A program made the translations under genes and the position numbers. The notes beneath the pieces are model-generated. The model did not search any database, had not been told where the DNA came from, and saw only the letters and a program-made list of their open reading frames with translations. Source: Fimbriimonadia bacterium (GTDB lineage: Bacteria > Armatimonadota > Fimbriimonadia > Fimbriimonadales > JABRVX01). From it: 64,000 nt of DNA. Every line of letters starts with the position of its first letter. Position 1 is the first letter of the stretch. Of the stretch, positions 13,383 to 14,527 are shown one piece after another. Location of the stretch: the NCBI GenBank assembly GCA_039961735.1, contig JABRVX010000004.1, positions 67,220-131,219 of the forward strand. The letters are read 5' to 3'.

Positions 13383-13476
13383 TGGCGGGAGCGTGTGGGA
13401 ATCGAACCCACCTGACCCGTTTCCGAGTCACAACGGTTTTGAAGACCGCGGGGCACACCAGCACCCATTCGCCCCC
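13383..13476 (-). tRNA. selC: tRNA-Sec, anticodon TCA
   Basis: 94 nt with CCA encoded. I can fold: acceptor GGGGGCG/CGCTCCC (7 bp, with an A-A opposition at position 8), a 6-bp D stem GGGTGC/GTGCCC with TGGT loop, anticodon stem GCGGT/ACCGT with loop CTTCAAA (anticodon TCA), a long variable arm TGACTCG-GAAA-CGGGTCA (7 bp), T arm GTGGG-TTCGATT-CCCAC, discriminator G. The long acceptor branch, 6-bp D stem and TCA anticodon identify tRNA-Sec. It begins 16 nt after selD, so the two are probably cotranscribed. Confidence 0.96.
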
Positions 13477-13492
13477 GCGACAGAATACCGGC

Positions 13493-14515
13493 TCAGGCCA
13501 CGAAGATGCGCGGCGGGCCTTCCTCGACGACCCCGATGTCCGCGGCGCCGGGCAACTCGGCGAGCAGCGCGTCCACATGCTCCGGCGCAACGAACAACGC
13601 CAGCCCCCCGGAGGTCTGCGGATCCACCACCAGTTTTCTCATCTCCTCCGGCACGCCCGGCGCGAACTCCAGGAGGTCCTCCAGCCACGAATGGTTGGCA
13701 AAGGCCCCGCCTGGAGAATGCCCCTCAGCAGCCAACCGCCTCGCCTCCGGAAGCAGCGGCAAGCGCTCGGACTGCAACCGCAACTCGACCCCCGAAGCCC
13801 GCGCGACATGTGAAAGGTGCCCGGCGAGTCCGAAACCGGTGATGTCCGTGCCGGTGCGCACGCCGTGCCTCACTGCAGCGTAGGCCGCATCTCGGTTCAG
13901 CCGCGTCATCGAGGCACATGCGGCCTCCAGCGCGTGTGGCGGACACGAATCGAACTTCGCGGCGGTGGTGATCACTCCGGTGCCCAGCGGCTTGGTCAGG
14001 ACGATGCGCTGGCCGGGCCTCGCATCCTTGTTGGTGATGGCCTGGCCAGGGTTGACGATGCCCGTCACGGCCATGCCGAACTTCGGCTCTTTGTCCTCCA
14101 CGCTGTGTCCGCCCACCACGACGGCCCCAGCTTCGATCACCTTCTCGTATCCCCCTAGCAAGATGCGGCTCAGCACCTCGGGTGGCGCTACACCCGCCGG
14201 GAAGCACAGGATGTTCAGCGCGGTGAGCGGCCGGCCACCCATCGCGTACACGTCGCTGAGCGCGTTGGCAGCGGCGATGGCGCCGAACAGATACGGGTCG
14301 TCCACGATAGGCGTGAAAAAGTCCACCGTCTGCACCAACGCGGTACCGTCGGGCAGCAGGTAAACGCCCGCGTCGTCCGCCGTATCCAGGCCGACGAGCA
14401 GATTCGGGTCTGTCGGGATGGGGAGCCCGCGGAGGACCTCCGCGAGTTGGGCGGGGCCCAGCTTACTCGCTCAACCCGCGCAGGCGACCATCTGGGTAAG
14501 CCGTATCTCGCTCAC
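13493..14515 (-). CDS. selD: Selenide, water dikinase SelD, itself a selenoprotein (in-frame TGA)
   Basis: 340 residues when TGA at 14473-14471 is read as selenocysteine (residue 15). The frame reads EIRLTQMVACAG-U-ASKLGPAQL, placing Sec at the position of the catalytic Cys17 of E. coli SelD with the essential Lys three residues later (Sec15-x-x-Lys18). After that come LVGLDTADDAGVYLL, VQTVDFFTPIVDDP, NALSDVYAMGG, GGHSVEDKEPKFG, TKPLGTGV, DITGFGLAGHL and DPQTSGGLALFV, all canonical. SelD makes selenophosphate from selenide and ATP. Conventional calling would start at 14338 and lose the active site. The GTG at 14515 lies 6 nt after a TATACT box; ATG 14539 is an in-frame alternative. Confidence 0.95.
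14442..14470 (-). promoter_or_regulatory. Candidate bacterial SECIS hairpin in selD
   Basis: Immediately 3' of the Sec TGA the minus strand folds as GCGAGT (6 bp with ACTCGC), a 4-nt 5' bulge AAGC, then TGGGC/GCCCA (5 bp) closing a CCC loop. Position directly after UGA fits bacterial SECIS elements read by SelB; the loop does not match the E. coli fdhF consensus, so pairing is seen but recognition is inferred. Confidence 0.6.
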
Positions 14516-14521
14516 GGGGCG

Positions 14522-14527
14522 AGTATA
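14522..14527 (-). promoter_or_regulatory. -10 box implying leaderless selD mRNA
   Basis: TATACT on the minus strand, then six bases CGCCCC, then the GTG start at 14515. Same geometry as at 11052-11064. No Shine-Dalgarno present. Confidence 0.6.

Follow-up and report, generated by a model that had tools for sequence, protein, structure and literature searches.

The selD gene of Fimbriimonadia bacterium, a member of the Fimbriimonadales, almost certainly encodes a Sec-containing selenophosphate synthetase (SelD) whose in-frame UGA would be decoded via a SECIS element. The gene lies in a 64,000-nucleotide stretch of contig JABRVX010000004.1 (hereafter, the window), and feature coordinates are collected in Table 1. 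UGA conservation, homology, RNA structure with covariation, and the presence of selA, selB, selC and selD were all computed here. The attributes of a Sec-containing SelD were found together: a family match running across the UGA, the position of the catalytic Cys accompanied by the Lys, the Sec machinery, and a UGA that is conserved or swapped for Cys only. Of the two UGA codons in this gene, one is read as Sec and the other (TGA 13495-13493, minus strand) ends the gene, acting as a real stop.

Table 1. Features of the selD locus and of a second selenoprotein gene in the same genome
Feature	Position	Strand	Description
selD CDS	13493..14515	-	GTG start, 340 residues, Sec at residue 15
Sec UGA codon	14471..14473	-	residue 15, position of E. 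coli SelD Cys17
H1, conserved hairpin between UGA and H2	14445..14463	-	loop without the G that the bSECIS model needs
H2, predicted SECIS (SelB-binding) hairpin	14428..14444	-	CGCGGAG-GUC-CUCCGCG, 7 bp, loop 33 nt after UGA
TATACT, -10-like box	14522..14527	-	6 nt before GTG 14515, position conserved in order
tRNA-Sec gene (selC)	13383..13476	-	anticodon TCA, CCA end encoded
TlpA/ResA-like selenoprotein	L151:1423-2517 = contig C13 22200-23291	-	in-frame UGA and hairpin

The readthrough product was matched by the TIGR00476 selD profile at 370.9 bits over residues 5-312 (profile cut-off 125). This match spans the UGA, and the residues on either side of it therefore belong to the SelD family. 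By phmmer, the protein aligned nearly end to end with E. coli SelD (3u0o), the same enzyme, with residue 15 placed on the Cys of the AGCGCK motif (Cys17 there, Sec15 here) and Lys18 on the Lys of that motif; the N-terminus also aligned with both Sec- and Cys-type SelD proteins. The longest table-11 ORF begins at TTG 14338, 59 residues late. The original prediction, made from the letters of the window, had held that standard calling drops these 59 residues and that reading through the TGA restores a full-length selenoprotein with Sec at the catalytic Cys position and Lys three residues on, and all of this was borne out by family match, TGA conservation and Sec machinery. Sec-type SelD is itself long known and textbook material, with Sec present in 19% of SelD genes, always at this position, in a 2015 reference set (PMC4561486), and the present SelD is a correct but ordinary example. 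Like prokaryotic Sec-containing SelD/SPS2, it belongs to the same family, has Sec at the same position and carries its SECIS inside the coding region; here the SECIS hairpin comes late, at 33 nt, and is preceded by a probable spacer hairpin, and nothing essential differs.

The host genome (3.24 Mb, 77 contigs, 98.9% complete) is the sole member of its family in the genome set compared. The closest named relatives of its SelD are from Armatimonadota, including Fimbriimonadaceae, and in a quick version of the SelD tree it was sister to most of its order. Across the 113 genomes of the class, TGA occupied the equivalent of codon 15 in roughly 50 SelD genes, which excludes an assembly error and disposes of the concern that the TGA might be a sequencing error. 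A Cys codon was found at the Sec position in four genomes (G008, G044, G063 and G093), and no replacement other than Cys was seen in the order. The corresponding Cys-type loci (L110 in G008, L126 in G093, L127 in G063 and L128 in G044) lie in genomes that retain selA. Because the SECIS stems have decayed in the three Cys-type genes of the order that were aligned, these genes are consistent with Sec-to-Cys conversions. Outside the phylum, Sec-type SelD was frequent among best matches from Acidobacteriota, Bacillota, Chloroflexota and Thermodesulfobacteriota.

SelA and SelD occurred together in 58 of the 113 genomes searched. SelA was found without SelD in two incomplete genomes (70% and 77%), and a SelD fragment without SelA in G011 (74% complete). 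The one further case, a divergent homologue in G026 (C105:68104-69075, minus strand; 41% identity, no TGA), sits in a genome without SelA and is either an orphan SelD or a SelD-like protein with a different function. In one genus (loci L144 and L145, genomes G061 and G062) the SelD match is split near residue 58 into two adjoining pieces, and additional residues follow DDAGVFLVPSGA, reflecting either an insertion or a frameshift.

For each SelD gene, the 45 nt following the codon were folded and their energy was compared with that of synonymous resamplings using the gene's own codon usage. Sec-type genes gave a mean z of -2.25 in the order (n=44) and of -1.37 elsewhere (n=52), whereas Cys-type genes gave +0.5 (n=3) and +0.15 (n=21), respectively; Cys-type SelD genes in general thus have no excess structure after the Cys codon. 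At other positions within the next 300 nt of the Sec-type genes, z ranged from -0.7 to +0.8, with one value of -1.3 in this order. Selection for structure therefore acts here only where the codon is UGA, and its location right after the UGA in Sec-type genes alone identifies a genuine SECIS-driven Sec codon.

Numbered from the UGA, two hairpins are conserved in the order: H1, pairing +8..+14 with +20..+26, and H2, pairing +27..+33 with +37..+43. Together they were 91.6% paired and showed 31 double-sided changes; shuffles gave 11.2 +/- 2.6 (0/500 as high), a control that related sequences inflate. In a slide control no shifted version approached the real pairing, although this control favours a structure derived, as here, from the very sequences on which it is tested. 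The bSECIS model (PMC13188914) requires that one of the two leading loop nucleotides be G and that the loop lie 16-37 nt from the UGA. H2 folds in the form listed in Table 1 and agrees with the model in loop size (GUC), stem length, G followed by U, and spacing, although at 33 nt it is close to the far limit of the range; the loop of H1 (CCCCG, 14 nt) does not agree. On this basis H2 is predicted to be the SelB-binding element and H1 is probably a spacer. The additional conserved hairpin between UGA and H2 sets this arrangement apart from the bSECIS model, and the two-hairpin SECIS is mildly new.

It is improbable that the SECIS is instead H1, or a hairpin directly after the UGA, with H2 having another role or none. 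H1 is conserved and nearer the UGA, but neither of its two leading loop nucleotides is G and its loop begins less than 16 nt after the UGA, both at odds with the bSECIS model; H2 shows stronger covariation and an invariant loop GU. The hairpin originally proposed as the signal, an outer stem (GCGAG/CUCGC) starting immediately after the UGA and pairing +1..+5 with +25..+29, was not conserved: it was 67% paired, and its central pair +3/+27 failed in 28 of 35 relatives. That proposal was confined to 14442-14515, and the predicted SECIS hairpin H2 lies almost entirely outside this span.

Sec-type SelD genes were also sorted by their minimum-energy folds into 58 of the late type, 34 of the early type (loop near +16..+24) and four unclear; the Armatimonadaceae locus L013, for example, is early, with loop GUC at +18..+20. 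Mapped onto the quick SelD tree, the late type requires 14 changes, and well-supported branches force no fewer than four of these; the SECIS has likely relocated repeatedly among SelD genes. A more tentative view is that SelD genes have two SECIS architectures, one with its loop at about +16..+24 and one with its loop at about +34 behind a G-less spacer hairpin; the element may have moved repeatedly while the UGA stayed fixed, with the spacer perhaps offsetting the distance such that SelB reaches the ribosome.

The machinery for Sec insertion was sought in the same genome. Both selA (contig C60, PF03841, 451 bits) and selB (contig C20, TIGR00475, 376.7 bits, above cut-off) were present, and the tRNA-Sec gene that had been noticed downstream scored 79.1 bits against RF01852 (cut-off 47), beginning 16 nt past the selD stop on the same strand. 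This closeness is not a general feature, since among the relatives scanned, many of whose loci extend just 1.5 kb beyond selD, L018, from Chthonomonadaceae, was the single locus with a nearby tRNA-Sec gene, 500-odd bases downstream. In the window, the tRNA-Sec gene is followed in the same orientation by an MFS_MOT1 molybdate transporter gene (PF16983, 12156-13349, minus strand).

With these components, SelA would convert Ser-tRNA-Sec to Sec-tRNA-Sec using selenophosphate supplied by SelD, and SelB with GTP and Sec-tRNA-Sec would bind the GU-loop of H2 and hand Sec to the UGA at codon 15. H1 folds the 19 nt that separate H2 from the UGA region and probably holds SelB near the ribosome, and Sec15 and Lys18 would form the catalytic pair. 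Decoding of the UGA by a near-cognate tRNA that inserts another residue, SelB not being involved, would likewise yield a full-length protein, and SPS1-UGA genes without Sec are known in Hymenoptera (PMC4561486); the complete Sec machinery, Cys as the sole replacement in the order and the SECIS covariation make this very unlikely here. That the TGA is a true stop, marks a pseudogene or is a sequencing error, with any working protein made from TTG 14338, is the result of standard ORF calling and is scarcely credible, given the TGA at the same codon in those many genomes, a short form that would have neither the catalytic Sec/Cys nor the Lys, and post-UGA structure selected in TGA-type genes only.

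Sec insertion also appears to serve a second protein. The same genome encodes a 364-residue TlpA/ResA-like selenoprotein (L151) with the UxxC motif FWFYGUGAC, and its UGA is followed by a hairpin (GUGCGGA-GUU-UCCGCAC) with the loop at +18..+20. Seven other genomes of the class hold relatives with one TGA in the matched stretch; all four relatives that were inspected carry it within this motif and have a hairpin like that of L151, and in one of them (L159) a C-G to A-U change preserves the stem. The inventory is a family-by-family genome search and is incomplete, giving at least one Sec protein besides SelD. In this search no Sec formate dehydrogenase scored above cut-off and the relatives found had no TGA, SelW was not found, and HesB and AhpD relatives had no TGA. 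Formate dehydrogenase, hinted at by the molybdate transporter beside the tRNA-Sec gene, was considered as the reason for Sec and set aside, no such enzyme being above cut-off.

Those absences, together with ybbB (selenouridine) above cut-off in 0 of 113 genomes of the class, are what would speak for SelD as the only selenoprotein, with a Sec machinery serving just its own synthesis. The TlpA/ResA-like UxxC protein, with its SECIS-like hairpin and its relatives, leaves that reading with a negligible probability. Genomes with SelD as the sole selenoprotein and YbbB as the beneficiary have been described by Zhang et al. 2006 (PMC1794560), and the host genome is not such a case. The earlier remark that SelD depends on its own product for its Sec is correct and long known, but SelD is not the sole user of Sec. 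Since no ybbB was found, selenophosphate in this class appears to serve Sec rather than selenouridine.

Of 45 SelD genes in the order, 41 have an upstream TA...T box (GGTANNCT) whose first position falls at -16..-10, against about three expected, and a Shine-Dalgarno-like site was present in one of the 45. The conserved -10-like box directly ahead and the near absence of Shine-Dalgarno sites support GTG 14515 as the start and suggest that the selD mRNA is leaderless. A conserved leaderless-type promoter right before a SelD start codon is mildly new. A few other window genes look alike, e.g. with TACACT ahead of GTG 11064. Comparison of the window DNA with plasmids gave no match.

Reading the UGA as Sec mends a gene call that drops the active site of the central selenium enzyme. 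Nearly all Sec-decoding members of this little-studied order carry a Sec-type SelD, and their two-hairpin SECIS offers a testable case for the distance allowed between the UGA and a SelB-binding hairpin.
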